IMG/VR virus record: IMGVR_UViG_3300034684_000053
Location: 1-38,499 of that record
From: a virus
DNA length: 38,499 bases
Strand: one strand, 5' to 3'
Made by a program: the position numbers and the translations under genes. The notes under the pieces are model-generated. The model ran no database searches and was not told the origin of the DNA. It was given only the letters and a program-made list of their open reading frames with translations. How positions within the stretch are numbered: position 1 is the stretch's first letter; each line of letters begins with the position of its first letter. This document shows positions 1,814 through 24,416 of this stretch, one piece after another.

Positions 1814-2237
1814 CTTTTTCCGGCTGACATCCATGAATCCCGAAAAACAAGATGCGTAACTTGCAATAAGATCTATTAATATCACGCTTAACGGTATCAA
1901 TACTGCAGTCAAATAGATCTGCCAGCTGCTCATTGGTGTATGGCTTGCCGCGACCGTCCGCACCGCCTGAAGGATCCACGAACTTACGCATGATCACATT
2001 GTACGGCCGAACATTGCCTTCATCCTCACAGAGCCGTCTATAGGTCTCAAGGGCAGCATCCATGTGAGACTTATAAGCCATTGTCTCCATACGCGATTCG
2101 GTGATCGCTCTGATCTGGCTGGAAATCTTATAATCAGCAACATACCAGTCGAGTGCATCTACTGCATTCTCGATAAAGGCCGCCAGGTAGCGATAGTGCT
2201 TAAGTGCTTCCTTGATGTTGTATTTTACTTCCGTCAT
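1806..2237 (-). CDS. ArpU/RinA-like late transcriptional regulator
   Basis: A 143-aa protein with a C-terminal sigma-like helix-turn-helix (TNEQLADLFDCSIDTVKRD, about residues 101-119) and an N-terminal helical part. Size, architecture and position (last early gene, just before terminase) match the ArpU family of Firmicutes phage late activators, which switch on the packaging-to-lysis operon. A strong site (AGGAGGATTT) precedes the ATG at 2237. The target is probably the inverted repeat at its own 3' end. The family assignment is by motif and context; its mode of action (activation or antitermination) is not visible. Confidence 0.8.
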   Translation of the reverse strand: MTEVKYNIKEALKHYRYLAAFIENAVDALDWYVADYKISSQIRAITESRMETMAYKSHMDAALETYRRLCEDEGNVRPYNVIMRKFVDPSGGADGRGKPYTNEQLADLFDCSIDTVKRDINRSYCKLRILFFGIHGCQPEKGA

Positions 2238-2246
2238 AAATCCTCC

Positions 2247-2453
2247 TTAGTCCGTAGGCCAGATATCCTTCTGATACTCGTCTTCGCAGTCAGGGCACAA
2301 GTGAACGAAAACTCCCTCGACTTTCATCTTGCGCCAGCCGCTCTCCTTCATGATCTCGAGAGACTGCTCGAAAGACTCAGCCTCGAAGCCATCACCGCAG
2401 TTGTCACAGGTGACCTGCTTAGCTTTGTGTCTGCCGTATATGTCTTCAATCAT
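2247..2453 (-). CDS. Small zinc-ribbon protein
   Basis: A 68-aa protein with two CxxC knuckles, CDNC near residue 16 and CPDC near residue 53, separated by an acidic helical stretch, as in a single zinc ribbon. It overlaps the preceding gene by 8 nt and is followed by the ArpU-like gene after 9 nt, so it belongs to the early operon. Its function is unknown. A similar two-knuckle protein is encoded at 3249-3446, and the two may be distant paralogues. Confidence 0.75.
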   Translation of the reverse strand: MIEDIYGRHKAKQVTCDNCGDGFEAESFEQSLEIMKESGWRKMKVEGVFVHLCPDCEDEYQKDIWPTD

Positions 2454-2592
2454 CAGCGGTCACCTCCCCCAGTGGACAATCAGCAGGCGCTGAGAACAGC
2501 GGAATAGTGTTTCCGGTCAATTCGCACGTTCGGTTCATGAAGTTAGCGATTCGATGTGGACAATCAACGCATTTGTTAGGTTTCATACTCAT
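2446..2592 (-). CDS. Small cysteine-rich protein (48 aa)
   Basis: Starts at 2592 (MSMKPNKCVDCPHR), preceded by AAAGGAGA; the ATG overlaps the TGA of the DUF551 gene in an ATGA junction. It has cysteines at residues 8, 11, 23 and 39 in a C-x2-C...C...C pattern that could hold one metal. A longer version from 2673 would overlap the upstream gene heavily and has no better ribosome site. Function unknown. Confidence 0.7.
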   Translation of the reverse strand: MSMKPNKCVDCPHRIANFMNRTCELTGNTIPLFSAPADCPLGEVTADD

Positions 2593-3092
2593 TCTCCTTT
2601 CGGCGGTTTTGGAAGTGGTTTCCAGTGAGTGACGTTCCACGGAGATATCCTGCCGTACCACTTCCATCTGCAAACTGTTTTCCCTCTTACCGTGTTCTTC
2701 TCGTACGACAACGACATCACCTTGGTGCTACTACAATTATCTACCATGACATTACACATAACACCGTATCCGCCCTCTGGGATTTCCGGCAACCTCTCGC
2801 TTACACTCACCCAAGGCTGATACGCTTGCAGGGCTGTGATGATCGTCTGCACAACATGATCTGGAAGTGTTGAAAGATATTCTGGCTCATTTTTTATACG
2901 TCTGACAAATTCGTGATCGTCAAGTTCATCAAACCAATTCAACGCTATTCGAGCTTCCTCACTCTTGACCGTCTGGCGAGCGATTTCGGCATTGATGAGG
3001 TCTTGCAAATCGGTTAAATATCCAACGCCAGTAACTTTAAGATTTGATTCTGCAACCTCTTTTTTTAATTCTTCCAATCTCTCAAATTCCAT
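2589..3092 (-). CDS. DUF551-containing protein
   Basis: A 167-aa protein. The C-terminal half begins WVSVSERLPE and ends THWKPLPKPPKGE, the signature of the DUF551 domain common in phage accessory regions; no biochemical role is established. The N-terminal half is charged and helical. GGGAGGTTGAATA precedes the ATG at 3092, and the gene overlaps the end of the small upstream gene by 11 nt. Confidence 0.85.
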   Translation of the reverse strand: MEFERLEELKKEVAESNLKVTGVGYLTDLQDLINAEIARQTVKSEEARIALNWFDELDDHEFVRRIKNEPEYLSTLPDHVVQTIITALQAYQPWVSVSERLPEIPEGGYGVMCNVMVDNCSSTKVMSLSYEKNTVRGKTVCRWKWYGRISPWNVTHWKPLPKPPKGE

Positions 3093-3252
3093 TATTCAAC
3101 CTCCCGTATTTAATGTGGTCTTCGATGCATTGTTTTGCCCGGTTAAGTGCGTAGCCATCAATATAATTGCGGAACTGACGCCAGCCTGCTTTACAAATAG
3201 GACAGTAGTACCAGACAGACCCGTCTTCTCTGATTTCTTTGATCGGATTCAT
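3082..3252 (-). CDS. Small CxxC protein (56 aa)
   Basis: Begins MNPIKEIREDGSVWYYCPIC and ends in TGA inside the next gene. The ATG at 3252 overlaps the stop of the upstream zinc-ribbon gene as ATGA, a typical coupled junction, and GAGGG lies upstream. Only one clear CPIC knuckle is present, with a further Cys near residue 42, so a complete metal site is uncertain. Function unknown. Confidence 0.65.
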   Translation of the reverse strand: MNPIKEIREDGSVWYYCPICKAGWRQFRNYIDGYALNRAKQCIEDHIKYGRLNNGI

Positions 3253-3446
3253 CCCTCAGCCCTCGCTTCGCTTCGCTTTTCGTCACAATCTTCACAACTG
3301 TCTAAATTTTTGCCACCCATGAATACTGTCCAACCCATTTCTTCACCGTAGTCATAAGCCTCTTGATACGTGTCAAAACTGTCATGTACACGTCCGCATT
3401 CGTCACAAACCAACTCAAATTTCCCGTTTGCTGTTTTTCCAATCAT
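3249..3446 (-). CDS. Small zinc-ribbon protein (65 aa)
   Basis: Contains CDEC near residue 14 and CEDC near residue 51 around the aromatic segment YDYGEEMGWTVF, so it looks like a two-knuckle zinc ribbon, similar in plan to the protein at 2247-2453. The ATG at 3446 is 8 nt from GGAGG; a GTG one codon earlier is an alternative. Function unknown. Confidence 0.7.
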   Translation of the reverse strand: MIGKTANGKFELVCDECGRVHDSFDTYQEAYDYGEEMGWTVFMGGKNLDSCEDCDEKRSEARAEG

Positions 3447-3449
3447 CAC

Positions 3450-3626
3450 TCAATCCTCCTCATCATCCAGCAGCCACGCCAACGCAGCAGCCCAAATCAG
3501 TCCGATCATGACCCAGCCCCACCAGAGGTCAATCGGCCAGACGAAGATCTGCACCAGCCAGCACGCCACAACAGCGACACAGGCAGCTTGGATTAGTCGT
3601 TTGGCACGCTTAAATAGATTTTTCAT
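3450..3626 (-). CDS. Small membrane protein (58 aa)
   Basis: Start at 3626 (MKNLFKRAKRLIQ) with GGAGGTATCAC just upstream. A basic N-terminus is followed by two hydrophobic stretches, AACVAVVACWLVQIFVW and WWGWVMIGLIWAAALAWL, and an acidic tail (DDEED): a hairpin-type inner membrane protein. It overlaps the preceding gene by 17 nt. No family recognised. Confidence 0.7.
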   Translation of the reverse strand: MKNLFKRAKRLIQAACVAVVACWLVQIFVWPIDLWWGWVMIGLIWAAALAWLLDDEED

Positions 3627-4017
3627 GTGATACCTCCATCGCCAACAGATCAAGCAGGTTCATCTGACGATCCTCCATGTCTGGACTAAGCATTTTTTGA
3701 ATGAAACGCTTTACTTCCGGCCATTTAATCTCGACCGTCATTCTGTTGTATGTCGAAGTGACCATTCCTGAACTGATCGAAACGTCCCATCCGATATCGT
3801 ATTTACTGTGCCCAGAATGTCTGCCGCTGAACGAAAATGACGGCCAATGTTCTAAGGCATAGGTGAAGATGTTTTTCTGCATCGTTTCCCATTCCTCGTA
3901 GCGCCATTCGTTTTCTTTTTCCATCGGGTACAGATAAGGCTTGACACTCCACTTGACTTGTTCAAGCGCATAATTCATTCCCTGCATCCAGAGCCATTTA
4001 CGGATTAGATCGTCCAT
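3610..4017 (-). CDS. Hypothetical protein (135 aa)
   Basis: Start at 4017 (MDDLIRKWLWMQGMNYALEQ), directly after the stop of the upstream zinc-ribbon gene and preceded by a GAGG-like site; a longer version from 4356 would overlap that gene by more than 300 nt. The protein is rich in aromatic residues (WRYEEWETMQKNIFTYALEHW) and ends in a helical region. No motif or family is recognised. Confidence 0.65.
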   Translation of the reverse strand: MDDLIRKWLWMQGMNYALEQVKWSVKPYLYPMEKENEWRYEEWETMQKNIFTYALEHWPSFSFSGRHSGHSKYDIGWDVSISSGMVTSTYNRMTVEIKWPEVKRFIQKMLSPDMEDRQMNLLDLLAMEVSHEKSI

Positions 4018-4018
4018 C

Positions 4019-4411
4019 TCATTCCTCACCCCACCCAACATATTGCGACCACTTGTGACCGCATACATCGCATTCGAACAAAACAACTTCATCATTTTCA
4101 GACCACTCCCAATCAGGATTACATCTATATTTTTTACCTGTTTCTGGATCAACACCTTTACAACTTGGGCAATTATAAAAATCCTGTTCATATAGCCACT
4201 GTGTGAAATCTTCATCGCTGACATATTCACCGGATTCCCACACGTCATTGTCACAACAAAGCTTGCACATGTACCAGTGCTGCCAATCACCTTCAAACAT
4301 TCCTCCTGTGTGATATGCCGTTTTGCCAACCGGAATAATTCTGCAACACGTTTCACATCTATGTGGCTTTCGAGTTTTAACTAATCTCATCTCACAACCA
4401 AACGTGCTCAC
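4019..4411 (-). CDS. Zinc-ribbon protein (130 aa)
   Basis: Contains three CxxC-type pairs, CETCCR, CKLCC and CPSCKG, plus CDVCGHKW near the C-terminus, so it probably binds two zinc ions. The opening MRLVKTRKPHRCETC resembles a frequent phage zinc-ribbon family of unknown role. A GTG start at 4411 follows GGTGGAG; the ATG at 4390 is an alternative. It sits 1 nt after the SANT/Myb-like gene. Confidence 0.75.
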   Translation of the reverse strand: MSTFGCEMRLVKTRKPHRCETCCRIIPVGKTAYHTGGMFEGDWQHWYMCKLCCDNDVWESGEYVSDEDFTQWLYEQDFYNCPSCKGVDPETGKKYRCNPDWEWSENDEVVLFECDVCGHKWSQYVGWGEE

Positions 4412-4412
4412 C

Positions 4413-5123
4413 CTACTCCACCGCCTCTCTCACTCTCGCCAGCTGCCTTGTCAGTCGGTCATTTTCCTGACGCAATTTGTCTGCGTACTCGATTATCTGG
4501 TTCAGCTGTTCAGTAATTGTTTTGACCGTTTCGGCGTAGTCTGGTTCAGGGTTACCGATTAAAAACTCACCCACCGCCGGAACAGCCTCGCCAATCTTCC
4601 CCACCGCACACACGCCGCTCTCACACTTTTCCTTCTCCGCGTCCTTAAACGGATGGCCTAAAATCAGCGCCTTTTGTTTTACAGCATTTACTGACCGGTC
4701 AAAAATCTTAGCCACTTCCTCCGGCGTAGTTCCTTTTTCCGCCATCTCAATCAGCCTGGCCTCGTCAGCGTCCGTCCAGCGCGGGCTCCATTTGCGCCAA
4801 CCCTCTTTACCACCGCCAGTTGTGAGCCCATGTTTTACCGCTCTGGCTTTACAGGCCTGTATTGACCGTCCAAGCTCTTTTGCGACCTTGTAAATCCCTG
4901 TTCCGGCTTCCATCAGCTCTCGGAAGCGTCTGTCCTCCTCAGCCGTCCAAGCGTTCCAGCTCCTGTTTCGTTTTACGCCAGGATTGCTTATAAGCCCGAG
5001 CGTTTCTTCTATTTCTGTTTTCGTTGTGCCGTTTAAGTCTGCCAGTATTCCGATTCTGTCCTGGCTTGGCGCCATTGACTTGTAGCGCGTTTTTATTTCT
5101 TCAGTTGTCATTGGTAAGCTCAT
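4413..5123 (-). CDS. SANT/Myb-like DNA-binding protein
   Basis: A 236-aa protein with two tandem Myb/SANT-like helical modules: WNAWTAEEDRRFRELMEAGT...ELGRSIQACKARAVKHGL (about 57-100) and WSPRWTDADEARLIEMAEKGT...KIFDRSVNAVKQKALILGH (about 111-157), followed by a C-terminal coiled coil (about 200-236) that suggests dimerisation. Such proteins bind DNA and in phages are annotated only as regulators. The start overlaps the upstream gene as ATGA. Its target is unknown; the GGGGC repeats at 7017-7318 are one candidate, by guess only. Confidence 0.75.
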   Translation of the reverse strand: MSLPMTTEEIKTRYKSMAPSQDRIGILADLNGTTKTEIEETLGLISNPGVKRNRSWNAWTAEEDRRFRELMEAGTGIYKVAKELGRSIQACKARAVKHGLTTGGGKEGWRKWSPRWTDADEARLIEMAEKGTTPEEVAKIFDRSVNAVKQKALILGHPFKDAEKEKCESGVCAVGKIGEAVPAVGEFLIGNPEPDYAETVKTITEQLNQIIEYADKLRQENDRLTRQLARVREAVE

Positions 5124-14531: not shown

Positions 14532-15286
14532 ACCGCCTCACCTCCGAGAAATTTCTGAATGAAATAAATCTGCCCTCGTCCGGTGACTTTCGGAGTTTTG
14601 CTGATTGACGTGTGGCCGTCAGAATGAGTTATCACGGTTTCCTTAACTTCAAACAATCCCATTTCCATCGACCGCTGCGTTGGCATATTGTAGTCAGTGC
14701 CCTGTCTGCGAATCAGGTGTCCGTTGTTTCTCAGCCAGTCAAACAAGCGATTCTGGCCGATGTCGACACCGTTTTGTTTGATTAGCTTGGCAAGCTCTCC
14801 GACCAAGATAGATGTTTTACTGACTGACACTGCATCGGCAAAGAGCGCTTTCGGCGCAAGCTGGTTGATTTGTTCTGTCTGGCGTTTAATAGTGTCCTGA
14901 GCAATCAGCACCGCTTTGGCCATAATCTGTTCTGGCGTTTCGTCTGGTGTAGTGTGAATGTAGCCACCTGATCGTCTGATCGATGGCAAGACTTCTGATG
15001 TAACCCAATGTTTGAATTTTCTTGCTGTGGGAAGTTTGGAGGAAAGAATCAGACTGTATAAGCCGGATTCGTTGATGAACCAACCACCACGTTGACCTAA
15101 ACTCGATAGCGTTTTGCTATTGAATTTGTCCTCTGCATCAACATGGTCTTGAATGGCTTCATTGGGATTCGCATACCCCAAAATCTCTGCGACGTCTTTG
15201 CCTACAAAAAACGGTTCATTATCAACTAACACCGTTCGAACCTGACCGAATTGATTGTTTTCGAAAATTCTGATAGAATTGTCCAT
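14528..15286 (-). CDS. Phage antirepressor (BRO-N + KilAC)
   Basis: A 252-aa protein. Residues 1-110 are a BRO-N domain (IRIFENNQFGQVRTVLVDNE, FFVGKDVAEILGYANP, FKHWVTSEVLPSIRRSGGY) and about 130-245 a KilAC/ANT domain (LVGELAKLIKQNGVDIGQNR, FDWLRNNGHLIRR). Such proteins bind or inactivate the repressor to favour lytic growth. It is the first large gene after cro. A short frame (15226-15357) with its own ribosome site overlaps its start, and an operator copy lies upstream at 15472-15486. Confidence 0.93.
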   Translation of the reverse strand: MDNSIRIFENNQFGQVRTVLVDNEPFFVGKDVAEILGYANPNEAIQDHVDAEDKFNSKTLSSLGQRGGWFINESGLYSLILSSKLPTARKFKHWVTSEVLPSIRRSGGYIHTTPDETPEQIMAKAVLIAQDTIKRQTEQINQLAPKALFADAVSVSKTSILVGELAKLIKQNGVDIGQNRLFDWLRNNGHLIRRQGTDYNMPTQRSMEMGLFEVKETVITHSDGHTSISKTPKVTGRGQIYFIQKFLGGEAV

Positions 15287-20646: not shown

Positions 20647-21939
20647 TCAAACGCCTCGTGCATCTCGAGCATCAGGCGTTGCTCGACTATAATGCGAGAT
20701 TGTTTTTGAACAATTTCGCATAGCCGACAAATCAGTTGATTGCTGTTCAATGTCATGTTTCCTCCAGCTGCGGTCAAACAAGCCTACAAAGAGTTTGTCC
20801 ATGTTCTGGACTGTTCGATAGGCGTTCTTGTGCATGATGTATCCACGCCATGAATTGTAAGAAATGCGGACATCCTCAAACTCCATCTCCCCGCGATCAA
20901 CCATTGGCTTGAAAGCCTTGAGCTTCCGCCTCATCCGCACGATGCTATCCCTGCACGGTTTCAAAATAACCTTGCCTGTGTCCGTGAGATAGAACCTTGT
21001 TTTCAGAAACTTAAAGCCCTTGCTTAGCTTTACAATCTGGGTCTTGTTTTGATTAAGGACAATACCGACCTTGTCACACTCGGCGCGGATCCGCTCCTGA
21101 CAGTCTTTGAGATAATCTTTGCTTGGATGAATCAAATAGCAATCATCCATATAGCGACCATAGAACTTGATCCTGAGTTCTTGCTTGATCAGGTGGTCAA
21201 TTTTATTCGTGTAGTGCACCGCTAAAATCTGACTGACCTGACTGCCAAGGCCGAGAGATTTAGCCCCAAAGGGCTCAATGAACTGCCGCGTTAGATCGCG
21301 CACGCCTTTGTCTGTGAACTTCTTCTCCAGGCTCTCGTAAATAGGTTCGTGCAGTATGTTGTCAAAATAGCCTTTGAAGTCCATCATCAAAACATAACCA
21401 TCGGCCCCATGCTTGCGGTAATAGCGCTGTAGATGCTTTTTAGCTCCATCAACCGAGAACTTAATTCCTTTGCCTTTAAGGCTGGCGCCATTGTAGTAGA
21501 TCAGAGACCTACTTAACACGGGCACGAGAGCCCTATCACATAAGGCTCTTTGCACGCACCTCTCAGAGATATGCACGCTCTTAATATGCCTTACCTTGCC
21601 GCGTTCCCGGAGAGTGAATTCGGTAAACCCTTTTGTGATATTTTTTCCATTAGAGATCTGTTCTCTGATCTTAACGGTGTTCCTGAAACGGTTAATACCA
21701 TACCGCTGCACGCTGCCTTTCCAGGACACGCCTTTTCTTGACTGGGCATAACCATCTAAAAGCGCGTTAAACGATACAGCCCGATCCAGATTATCGTACT
21801 TTTCGGTTGTACTAGTGACCTTTTTGGTTCTGGCTTCTTTTCTTCTTTGATATCGTCTCTCATGTCGTTCCTTGCTGTTAATTTTAAGACACCTCGTATA
21901 GCACTCGCGCAATGAATAGCTACATAGCAGTACAGGCAT
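20647..21939 (-). CDS. DGR reverse transcriptase
   Basis: A 430-aa reverse transcriptase. Motif A has the catalytic Asp in MMDFKGYFDN (D187), motif C is YMDD (263-266), and motif 4 reads GLGSQVSQ (230-237), the SQ variant that marks DGR enzymes instead of the usual QG. A basic N-terminus (RRYQRRKEARTKK) probably binds the template RNA. It copies the TR transcript into cDNA with errors at adenines; the cDNA then replaces the VR of the tail adhesin. Order on the minus strand is adhesin-VR, Avd, TR, RT, the classic BPP-1 order. ACGGAG lies upstream of the ATG. Confidence 0.95.
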   Translation of the reverse strand: MPVLLCSYSLRECYTRCLKINSKERHERRYQRRKEARTKKVTSTTEKYDNLDRAVSFNALLDGYAQSRKGVSWKGSVQRYGINRFRNTVKIREQISNGKNITKGFTEFTLRERGKVRHIKSVHISERCVQRALCDRALVPVLSRSLIYYNGASLKGKGIKFSVDGAKKHLQRYYRKHGADGYVLMMDFKGYFDNILHEPIYESLEKKFTDKGVRDLTRQFIEPFGAKSLGLGSQVSQILAVHYTNKIDHLIKQELRIKFYGRYMDDCYLIHPSKDYLKDCQERIRAECDKVGIVLNQNKTQIVKLSKGFKFLKTRFYLTDTGKVILKPCRDSIVRMRRKLKAFKPMVDRGEMEFEDVRISYNSWRGYIMHKNAYRTVQNMDKLFVGLFDRSWRKHDIEQQSTDLSAMRNCSKTISHYSRATPDARDARGV

Positions 21940-22015
21940 GAAACGAGCTCCGTATGCGCGTCAGGAAGCTCGCCATGCAAGCAGCGTCCGCCCACCTGCA
22001 TCGAGGTGTATATTT

Positions 22016-22108
22016 ACCCTTTCGGGAAGGTTGCTTTCTCCTTCCACACACTTGAGGACTGATTTCGGTCATGTGACTTACTTTGTCTGCCTTATTGACG
22101 TGTGCAAT
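22016..22108 (-). ncRNA. DGR template-RNA 3' spacer region
   Basis: This lies between the TR and the RT gene, where DGR template RNA carries the segment needed for cDNA priming. On the minus strand it holds two small hairpins, GGAAGG/CCTTCC (22025-22045) and CCC-GAAA-GGG (22017-22026). The assignment follows the known plan of DGR RNAs; the exact ends are not determined. Confidence 0.55.
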
Positions 22109-22208
22109 CAGAGCGGGATCCGATTAGCGTTGCTGGCGTTGTTGTTGTTCGCATTGCCGTTGTTGTTGACATTACAGAAGTTCGTGGTCGAAGCACGCCT
22201 CGGGGACA
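22109..22208 (-). repeat. DGR template repeat (TR)
   Basis: A 100-bp copy of the VR at 22708-22807. It is rich in AAC/AAT codons in the adhesin frame, which cannot become stop codons when the adenines change. It differs from the VR at 16 positions, all adenines here. Flanks CGGATCCCGCTCTG and TGTCCCCGAGGCGTGCTTCG are identical in both repeats. Confidence 0.97.
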
Positions 22209-22229: not shown

Positions 22230-22646
22230 CTATGCCAGGTCAGAAAACCTTGCTTTGTCTTTTTTCTTCCAGCCTCGAAGTAGTGAAGTCTCACGCACGA
22301 GACTTTCAGCCAGAGGACTCATGATCCGCTCGGGAATTGGCAGGACATCATATGCGTACTGAAACTCTTGGAGGAGGGCTTCGCACGCACAGATCGCAAG
22401 CGTCTGGTACTTTGCTCGCTCAGTTGCTTCCGCAGCTGAGCCGGGGAAAATACTATTGGCAAACGTAATGTTTTGCGTCATTGCTTGCGCCAGGGTAAAG
22501 ATAGGCAGCGCGTAAAAGTTTCTGCTGCGTTTCGGAAAATATTTCTCATTAAGGCATAATCTGGTGATCTCCTTTCTAAGCTCCATGGCGGTATTGTAAA
22601 ATTCCATTTCTGATGCGGCCCTGTGCCGCTTGTAGACGTTACTCAA
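22230..22646 (-). CDS. avd: DGR accessory protein Avd
   Basis: A 138-aa, all-helical, basic protein (MEFYNTAMELRKEITRLCLNEKYFPKRSRNFY...) of the Avd / four-helix-bundle type that forms a barrel, binds template RNA and RT, and is needed for retrohoming. It is placed between VR and TR on the same strand. The best start is TTG at 22646, 7 nt after GGAGG; an upstream TTG at 22670 would put five Gly codons from the VR hairpin into the protein. Its stop lies 21 bp before the TR. Confidence 0.88.
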   Translation of the reverse strand: MSNVYKRHRAASEMEFYNTAMELRKEITRLCLNEKYFPKRSRNFYALPIFTLAQAMTQNITFANSIFPGSAAEATERAKYQTLAICACEALLQEFQYAYDVLPIPERIMSPLAESLVRETSLLRGWKKKDKARFSDLA

Positions 22647-22658
22647 GTGTCCTCCTCC

Positions 22659-22679
22659 CCCGCCGCACAAGGCGGCGGG
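22659..22679 (-). other. DGR hairpin downstream of VR
   Basis: A perfect 8-bp GC stem, CCCGCCGC (22659-22666) and GCGGCGGG (22672-22679), with a 5-nt loop lies 12 bp past the adhesin stop codon and 28 bp past the VR. DGRs have such a hairpin or cruciform behind the VR that raises retrohoming of the target. Confidence 0.82.
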
Positions 22680-22691
22680 AATTAACCGATA

Positions 22692-24416
22692 TTACGATAC
22701 TCGGAAGCAGAGCGGGATCCGATAAGCGGCGCTGGCGGAGTTGTTGCCCGCAACGCCGTAGTAGTGGACATAACAGAAGGACGCGGTCGAAGCACGCCTC
22801 GGGGACAGTTCCCACCAAGATGAGGCGGAACCACCGTTGCCTGCACCCTTTATAATATGTTTTTCCGACCCTGCAAATAGCGGATACTGCTTGAAATTGC
22901 CGGAACCGTAGCCGATCTCTGACCATGACTGATAGCCGAAAACTTCCAGTTCAGCCGGCAGCCATAGTTTGGTCTCGGTATGCCATGCCCATGTTGTGGA
23001 GTCCGCCGCCGCCTTGTTTTCAAGCAGCATCAGTTTCGGACCAATAACAGCTTTGACGTCAGACGGCAATTTGTCATATATACCACCAGTGCCGTTCATC
23101 GCTGTGTAGAGAGAAGATGCCAACCAGCCGCCAATATTTGTGTTCGTCGTGTTGTACTGATAGGCCGCCGACAAACAATCTCTGCTGATGAAATCTATGT
23201 TGTGTTTGCCGTTAGATGCGTAACCGTAGTAAGTGTCGATGCCTGCGACCTCCATGATGACGGTTTCAGATGTCGTCAAGGTAAGCGGCTTCCAGTCGCC
23301 GACGGAAATATCCGAGAAATCACCAGCAAGGCATTTTGTTTGAATTTGCGCCCAAGTGAATGGAATTTCACGGCCATACTCGTAGGTTTTGATCGTTCGA
23401 CCGAACAGTTTACGGTCTAGGATATCAATGCTATCGGTCATTGGCTGGCTGCTGGAAATGAAATTTTTCTCTGTGTAAAGCCTCGTCCCAAGAACATTCA
23501 TGTGCAGCCATATGGATGTATCTTCATTATGCGTGTCGATCGCATCGCTTAACTGCTGGGCCGATACATCGCCTTGTGCTGCAATCAATAACCAGTGGTT
23601 TACATCTGTCGGCAACGTCCCTGCTACACCTGACACTGTGTGCATGTAGTAGCTGCTTCCCTGATAAGACACTTTGTTTCCGATCTGGTATACCTCAGCT
23701 GGATCGAATGCTTCCCAGACTTGCCTGGCAGTCTCTGCCGCGATTCTGTCTGTTTCGGCAGCATCTCTGATGCCTTCCGCGGAAGCTCTTGCTGTCTCAG
23801 CGGACAGTCTTAGCTGTTCAGCACTATCACGGGCAGTTTCAGCTGACAGCCTTAACTGCTCGGCACCATCCCGGGTGGTCTCGGCGGTTTCCCTGAGGCC
23901 TTCTGCATTGTCTCGCGCTGTTTCAGCACTGTCTCGCAGAGTTTCCGCGTCAACACGATCTTCTTCTGCCGAAACACGTGCTGCCTCAGCTGCCACACGG
24001 TCGTTTTCCGCGCCAAAGATTGTGACGATCTGACCTATTACATCTTGATCCTCTTCCGTTGGTGTAAGATCGTGTCCTGCCAATATCCGCACATTCACAA
24101 ACACAATCAGCGTCGGCGTATAAAGATTGTCCTCTGCGAACCGGATATACATCATTAGTGGTGACGCGACTGCTGTTTCCTGTTCGGTTAATGTATGGTA
24201 GATCTTATTTCCGATCACGTCCTCAGCCGGCACGATTGTTTCCAGAGTAACCTCATCGGATCGGACGAATCGGAGGATGACATTACCTGTTATAGCTTCG
24301 AGATCGGCCAATTCAATGACCAGGTGATAGGCGTTGCTGTCACCGATCATGATCTGGTCATAACAGATCTGCTGCTCGATGCCTGTTCTTGTTCTGATGT
24401 TGATGATCTTATTCAA
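22692..24416 (-). CDS. Tail adhesin / receptor-binding protein, DGR target
   Basis: A 574-aa protein. Residues 1-130 look like a BppU-type baseplate upper protein N-terminus (virion attachment); 140-232 is a coiled coil of Ala/Glu/Arg heptads (SAETARDSAEQLRL repeats); about 238-280 is a small carbohydrate-binding-like module (YQIGNKVSYQGSSYYMH); the C-terminal ~230 residues form a DUF6273/C-type-lectin-like fold whose end (537-570) is the variable repeat. It starts with TTG at 24416 after GAGGTGAAAGCCA. Eleven residues differ from the template-coded ones: 545, 546, 549, 551, 552, 553, 555, 557, 560, 563 and 565. It should set host-receptor specificity. Confidence 0.92.
   Translation of the reverse strand: MNKIINIRTRTGIEQQICYDQIMIGDSNAYHLVIELADLEAITGNVILRFVRSDEVTLETIVPAEDVIGNKIYHTLTEQETAVASPLMMYIRFAEDNLYTPTLIVFVNVRILAGHDLTPTEEDQDVIGQIVTIFGAENDRVAAEAARVSAEEDRVDAETLRDSAETARDNAEGLRETAETTRDGAEQLRLSAETARDSAEQLRLSAETARASAEGIRDAAETDRIAAETARQVWEAFDPAEVYQIGNKVSYQGSSYYMHTVSGVAGTLPTDVNHWLLIAAQGDVSAQQLSDAIDTHNEDTSIWLHMNVLGTRLYTEKNFISSSQPMTDSIDILDRKLFGRTIKTYEYGREIPFTWAQIQTKCLAGDFSDISVGDWKPLTLTTSETVIMEVAGIDTYYGYASNGKHNIDFISRDCLSAAYQYNTTNTNIGGWLASSLYTAMNGTGGIYDKLPSDVKAVIGPKLMLLENKAAADSTTWAWHTETKLWLPAELEVFGYQSWSEIGYGSGNFKQYPLFAGSEKHIIKGAGNGGSASSWWELSPRRASTASFCYVHYYGVAGNNSASAAYRIPLCFRVS
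22708..22807 (-). repeat. DGR variable repeat (VR)
   Basis: A 100-bp segment at the 3' end of the adhesin gene, homologous to the TR. Sixteen substitutions, all at TR adenines (to G, C or T), fall in 11 codons; non-adenine positions are all unchanged. The constant end CGGATCCCGCTCTG is the probable initiation-of-homing site. Confidence 0.97.

Follow-up and report, generated by a model that had tools for sequence, protein, structure and literature searches.

The stretch of DNA analysed here, hereafter the window, comprises 38,499 nucleotides (positions 1 to 38,499 of the viral record IMGVR_UViG_3300034684_000053). The two ends of the record share an identical 127 bp, which indicates that the genome, of about 38.4 kb, is circularly closed, and its gene content (portal, head, tape-measure, tail, holin, endolysin, integrase and repressor) suggests a temperate tailed phage. 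A diversity-generating retroelement (DGR) is encoded entirely on the minus strand, in the order target gene, Avd, template repeat (TR), RT-2 RNA and reverse transcriptase (RT), and the target gene lies directly downstream of a tail protein gene (26545-24485, minus strand). The following features were identified:

22692-24416, minus strand: target gene (variable protein, VP) of 574 aa, a probable tail adhesin with DUF6273 and matches to tail/structural PHROGs
22708-22807, minus strand: variable repeat (VR) spanning codons 537-570, 3'-terminal in the target gene, with 16 of 16 differences from the TR at TR adenines
22705-22708, minus strand: GCTT at the 3' boundary of the VR, IMH-like, the counterpart of GATT at the TR
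22659-22679, minus strand: target-site hairpin with an 8-bp stem (CCCGCCGC/GCGGCGGG) and a 5-nt loop, CTTGT, not followed by a T-run
22230-22670, minus strand: ORF of the Avd accessory protein, matching phrog_3206 ('Avd protein of DGR', E = 9.9e-8)
22109-22208, minus strand: TR, with 29 adenines and 12 in-frame AAY codons
22106-22109, minus strand: GATT at the 3' boundary of the TR, IMH*-like, opposite GCTT at the VR in 89 of the 90 loci with GATT, window included
21869-22095, minus strand: RT-2 RNA (RF03077), structured 3' part of the template RNA region, 143 bits against a gathering score of 40
20647-21939, minus strand: ORF of the DGR reverse transcriptase, matching RVT_1 and phrog_1423, with YMDD at residues 263-266

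The DUF6273 (PF19789) match covers residues 418-571 of the target protein, the C-terminal domain that contains the VR. A DUF6273-like domain has been said to resemble C-type lectins (PMC10743442). For the C-terminal 201 residues, an AlphaFold2 model built on 43 aligned sequences has a mean pLDDT of 91.3, and C-type-lectin domains make up most of the VIA-align matches listed for the VR domain, at Z 5-7, where values below 8 are weak when taken alone. The best VIA-align match of this domain (window 22692-23297, minus strand) is 9qa6, chain residues 40-283 of the IgA peptidase of Thomasclavelia ramosa (Z 15.8, rmsd 2.4, 170 aligned); a bacterial enzyme thus has a similar domain. Mtd is not among the Foldseek and VIA-align matches listed for the VR domain, an absence that excludes nothing. 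The target protein is probably a tail adhesin with a predicted C-type-lectin-like C-terminal domain, and its gene position and fold suggest that it binds a receptor.

No Pfam match was obtained for Avd at E up to 0.1; its true start is probably the TTG at 22646, as judged from the sequence. For the model of the RT (pLDDT 83.3), PDB ranks 1-5 are all DGR ribonucleoprotein RT structures, including 8ubd and 8ub7, which we take to be those of Bordetella phage BPP-1. Where relatives commonly start the RT, the window reads ATT (21880-21882, minus strand), with GAGGT eight bases upstream, while the ATG at 21939, inside the RT-2 RNA, is probably not the RT start. As the common position lacks ATG, GTG and TTG, expression of the RT could be weak. 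An RT start was found in 76 of the 127 dereplicated loci of the panel described below, of which 14 are without a Shine-Dalgarno site. The site may be sequestered in an RT-2 stem, its predicted pairing probability being above 0.5 in 38 of the 62 loci that have it (mean 0.57, a figure without a control).

The RT-2 RNA of the window matches the full Rfam model (1-222) and scores well above its gathering threshold. Both in the window and in 28 of the 33 relatives scanned (11/13 and 17/20), it adjoins the TR on its 3' side, at a gap of -8 to 31 bases in 27 relatives, and an RT-2 RNA follows each of the seven template units of one Clostridia locus (L149, see below). In BPP-1, a spacer RNA 3' of the TR primes cDNA synthesis, and by analogy the RT-2 RNA appears to sit in the place of that spacer. 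Rfam files RT-2 as 'Gene; sRNA', whereas here the RNA adjoins a TR. No link between RT-2 and DGRs was found in the literature searched, in which the Rfam 15 paper tabulates RT-2 without mention of retroelements; the link may nevertheless already be in print. A direct repeat of 37 nt with 73% identity (14578-14614 and 22068-22104), the second copy of which lies just after the TR, is probably due to chance.

Besides a TR/VR pair with mismatches at template adenines, which is treated in the next section, a DGR is recognized by an RT of the DGR type, an accessory protein Avd, a target gene carrying the VR at its 3' end within a C-type-lectin-like fold, an IMH/IMH* difference and a hairpin downstream of the VR. 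The first is present as the RVT_1 and phrog_1423 matches and the top five PDB fold matches, the second as the phrog_3206 match and the third as a VR that ends four codons before the end of the 574-codon target gene; the last two are treated with the boundary below.

Adenine-specific differences between the repeats

TR and VR align without gaps over 100 bases of the coding (minus) strand, with 16 mismatches. The TR consists of 29 A, 33 C, 21 G and 17 T, and mismatches at its C, G and T number 0, 0 and 0 (0/71 non-A positions); by the hypergeometric distribution, 16 mismatches among 100 positions would all hit the 29 adenines with a probability of 5.0e-11. The changes from TR to VR are 7 A>T, 5 A>G and 4 A>C. 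In the frame of the target gene they affect 11 codons (545, 546, 549, 551, 552, 553, 555, 557, 560, 563 and 565), with 11 mismatches at first and five at second codon positions, so that 10 of the 12 AAY codons and 55% of the TR adenines are changed. The preliminary description had reported 16 differences in 11 codons, from A to G, C or T in every case, and had called for a recount in a pairwise alignment; the recount reproduced all of these figures. In the reverse reading no mismatch falls on any of the VR's own 13 adenines, and the direction from TR to VR is therefore unambiguous. A search of the whole window with A mismatches tolerated gave no further VR for this TR, the next-best place having 33 non-A mismatches; hence, a single VR was found in the window, 599 bp from the TR.

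In DGRs at large, a bias towards adenine has been documented as nearly universal (PMC8144416). Relatives were collected by RT searches, which gave 6, at least 80 (one repeated) and at least 80 loci, by an Avd search, which added one, and by the addition of three GenBank phage loci; the clade sampled in this way occurs mostly in genomes of Bacillota and in viral contigs of gut type. When the surroundings of the RT were scanned for repeats, base-blind and without gaps, a pair emerged in 154 of 170 RT-match loci, the window slice included. Among the 16 loci without a pair, 13 hold less than 1.1 kb upstream of the RT and the others 1110, 1416 and 1776 bases. Eight of the 154 pairs fall under an A-fraction of 0.8, a cut made on the outcome itself; for the hairpin count the cut was 0.75 (148 loci). 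Four loci with low A-fractions were kept (L116, 10/23; L038, 4/7; L055, 10/13; L159, 14/18), for two (L080 and L083) a lower-ranked, A-only pair was taken, and two (L104 and L149) were left out; the remaining 152 loci group into 127 TR clusters when an identity of 97% is applied.

Across the 127 dereplicated loci (the window among them), a TR A underlies 1968 of 2073 mismatches and another base 105, and without the window the figure is 1951 of 2056 (126 relatives); both counts still include a boundary A>C, described below, where the repeat pair reached the boundary. Loci with A mismatches only number 68/127 with the window and 67/126 without it. After trimming at the boundary in the 89 anchored loci, the window among them, A accounts for 1343 of 1379 mismatches, and 64 of these loci have no others. 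Every one of the 146 loci counted has its VR upstream of the TR and on the same strand. For the fraction of TR adenines that are changed, the panel has a median of 0.50, and the window ranks 64th of 89 from the lowest. Among 29 pairs of loci within clusters, ten are identical in TR and VR, ten differ in the TR at one to three positions and nine share the TR but not the VR; in the last group 171 of 172 VR differences are at TR A, although the pairs share loci and are not all independent. Thus, members of the clade diversify the VR and keep the TR. Closer to the window phage, a VP search gave no near relative, in a searched set from which near-identical records may be left out; an Avd search gave one remote locus only (36% identity), and a search for TR-like patterns gave one contig, for which blastn at E 1e-3 showed no similarity to the window.

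Several loci of the panel depart from the simple arrangement. L149 (JAAWKZ010000005.1, a Clostridia MAG) carries seven tandem units of a TR-like sequence with RT-2 between Avd and a single RT (approximately 2020-5055) and is a multi-template DGR. Its first unit differs from the local VR (1304 onward) by 11 A and no non-A mismatches; the other units fit that VR worse or not at all, the second looks A-mutated itself, and further unit copies lie on other contigs of the assembly. In L083 (TR approximately 4642-4770) there are two VR-like partners with 14 and 22 mismatches, all at A, and in L080 (TR approximately 4699-4827) two with 18/18 and 17/18 mismatches at A, so one template may serve two targets. 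The pairs of L116 and L038 have many non-A mismatches (13/23 and 3/7), unlike most, and are possibly decayed or recombined repeats.

The preliminary description had read the repeats as the fingerprint of adenine-specific mutagenic retrohoming, active in this lineage. That reading is supported by the confinement of 16/16 changes to A, by the appearance of all three other bases and by the adjacent Avd, RT and template RNA; it is the sole mechanism considered that predicts such changes in this setting. Past activity of this copy of the DGR is a sound inference from the TR/VR pattern, ongoing activity lying outside it. The DGR might have diversified the VR in the past and now be inactive in the window phage, for example through a poor RT start, as the ATT at the position common in relatives would allow. 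We consider this unlikely: the RT, Avd and VP ORFs are open, the YMDD motif, the RNA module (143 bits) and the hairpin are intact, the ATT with its upstream GAGGT may still be used, and the proportion of TR adenines changed is near the panel median. Base editing or deamination of one DNA strand, instead of error-prone reverse transcription, would likewise give base-specific changes on one strand, but mainly one product would be expected from it, whereas T, G and C appear here in similar numbers (7/5/4) next to an RT and its template RNA, and this reading is disfavoured to the point of being negligible. Two diverged duplicate repeats with ordinary point mutations, A-only by chance or base composition, could stand 599 bp apart after a small duplication, but the reading is refuted, its probability practically nil, by P of about 5e-11 with the other bases at 0/71, by the position of the TR copy outside the target gene, between Avd and RT, and by the same pattern in the 126 dereplicated relatives (1951/2056).

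The codons for N558 and N559, the two unchanged AAY codons of the 12 in the window, had been described as possibly constrained or simply not yet hit. The codon-frame alignment confirms that both are still AAC. In 90 anchored loci, window included, 200 of 958 AAY codons (21%) are unchanged, as against 13/71 at the N558 position and 17/61 at that of N559; these rates are near the panel average, no constraint need be assumed, and constraint was rejected. 'Not yet hit' gives a slightly wrong picture, since a retrohoming event would replace the repeat in its entirety, and it is thus more likely that both codons were copied faithfully in the last event. The RT of BPP-1 in Escherichia coli has been reported to misread 30.65% over all adenine contexts and to change 68% of AAC codons (PMC12875486), as against 10 of 12 AAY codons in the window.

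Boundary and hairpin at the variable repeat

The identity of TR and VR runs three bases beyond the 100-bp repeat (22106-22108), with a 17th mismatch, A>C, at 22108/22707. Counting it as a 17th mutagenesis event was rejected, because the same difference is fixed in relatives. In a survey of the 127 dereplicated loci, window included, the TR has GATT in 90, opposite which the VR has GCTT in 89 and GTTT in one, and there is no GATT in the stretch searched in the other 37. Thus, the 100-bp extent of the repeat and the count of 16 given in the preliminary description are right. With the reading frame taken from the window, 75 loci are open through the boundary, and the GATT/GCTT difference would turn Cys into a stop in 39 and is synonymous in 36 (Gly 33, Arg 3); coding constraint therefore does not explain the fixed C. 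In BPP-1, the IMH/IMH* difference gives directionality (PMC3240598). We take GATT/GCTT as this clade's form of the IMH/IMH* difference, which by analogy would mark the end of the exchanged segment. As a practical rule, a terminal A>C adjoining the repeat is to be left out of any count of mutagenesis.

The hairpin of the window has a GC stem and lies 28 bases past the VR. Among 148 loci, window included, stems of at least 7 bp within 70 bases occur 3' of the VR in 114 and 3' of the TR in five, with a mean of 2.6/148 in shuffled flanks. With stems of at least 6 bp within 60 bases, 100 of the 127 dereplicated loci have a hairpin and 27 do not, and the 100 hairpins comprise 85 distinct stems. Their loops are of 5 nt in 61, 6 nt in 26, 4 nt in eight and 7 nt in five, and a T-run follows in five. 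The consensus of the 5-nt loops is YTTRT, and the CTTGT of the window is common in the clade. The BPP-1 hairpin is needed for efficient retrohoming, and the consensus published for phages has a 4-nt GRNA loop, in a figure that names few species; a CTTT loop, or one 2 nt larger, lowers BPP-1 activity to near background (PMC3240598). A 4-nt GRNA loop is absent from the window and present in only one of the 100 dereplicated hairpins. The clade thus keeps the hairpin structure with another loop, a loop type that may have been noted elsewhere, and this, together with the 27/127 loci without a hairpin, indicates that the BPP-1 rules are not automatically transferable.

Two ideas about the loop were considered. 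Pairing of the loop with the RNA after the TR as a recognition code is unsupported, the mean longest complementary run being 3.86 as against a mean of 3.74 and a maximum of 3.94 for shuffled loops. On the RT tree, a quick tree with long branches, the loop classes are clustered (45 changes as against a shuffled mean of 64.3), and one origin per loop class was rejected on the same tree.

Mechanism and comparison with known systems

The window element is almost certainly a working-type, phage-borne DGR that diversifies the VR of a tail adhesin. By analogy with BPP-1, a transcript with the TR and the RT-2 RNA would be bound by RT and Avd, and cDNA would be copied from it with random misreading at template adenines. 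The cDNA would then replace the VR at the end of the adhesin gene, up to the GATT/GCTT boundary, with the hairpin just 3' of the VR marking it, and not the TR, as the recipient. The lectin-like domain could in this way be redrawn at up to 13 codons (the 12 AAY codons and T545) while its scaffold is kept, and the redrawn tail protein would probably switch the bacterial surface molecule that it binds.

The gene order of the BPP-1 DGR is mtd/avd/TR/brt, and the window resembles it in this order and in the AAC-rich TR, the A-only VR changes, the Avd and the RT fold. The two differ in the target (Mtd in BPP-1, a DUF6273 lectin-like tail protein in the window), in the GATT/GCTT boundary of the window and in the RT, which is about 24% identical to the solved structure. 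Both have a hairpin with an 8-bp GC stem downstream of the VR, although the loop is GAAA in BPP-1 and the 5-nt CTTGT in the window (PMC3240598). Roseburia phage Shimadzu (LR596903.1) also carries a similar DGR: its RT is 51% identical, Avd and a tail-fibre target stand in the same order, 17/18 TR/VR mismatches are at A, an RT-2 RNA is present and the VP C-terminus is about 40% identical. However, its repeat is longer (129 aligned bases), and its tail region has P2-like and baseplate genes, whereas upstream of the VP gene the window carries genes for a tape measure and a phrog_6616 tail protein. DGRs of Faecalibacterium prophages, as described, also have DUF6273 targets with the VR at the DUF6273 C-terminus (PMC11792537).

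The element is an ordinary, canonical DGR with variant details at the target site. It joins the many catalogued phage DGRs as another well-formed example; the adenine pattern is known DGR behaviour, and the target-site variants are what differs. The proposal that the donor/recipient code of this clade differs from that of Bordetella, with a near-invariant one-base GATT/GCTT switch that ends the copied segment, a 5-6-base YTTRT-type loop on the hairpin that marks the recipient and RT-2 as the conserved 3' half of the template RNA, has in our view an even chance of being correct. If true, an element of this clade could work beside BPP-1-type elements without cross-talk. The panel also provides expectations for natural VRs, in which about half of the template adenines are changed and about one-fifth of the AAY codons are untouched. 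With the conserved boundary base, the non-GRNA loop and the position of the RT-2 RNA, target choice and priming become open to testing in a second lineage of DGRs.
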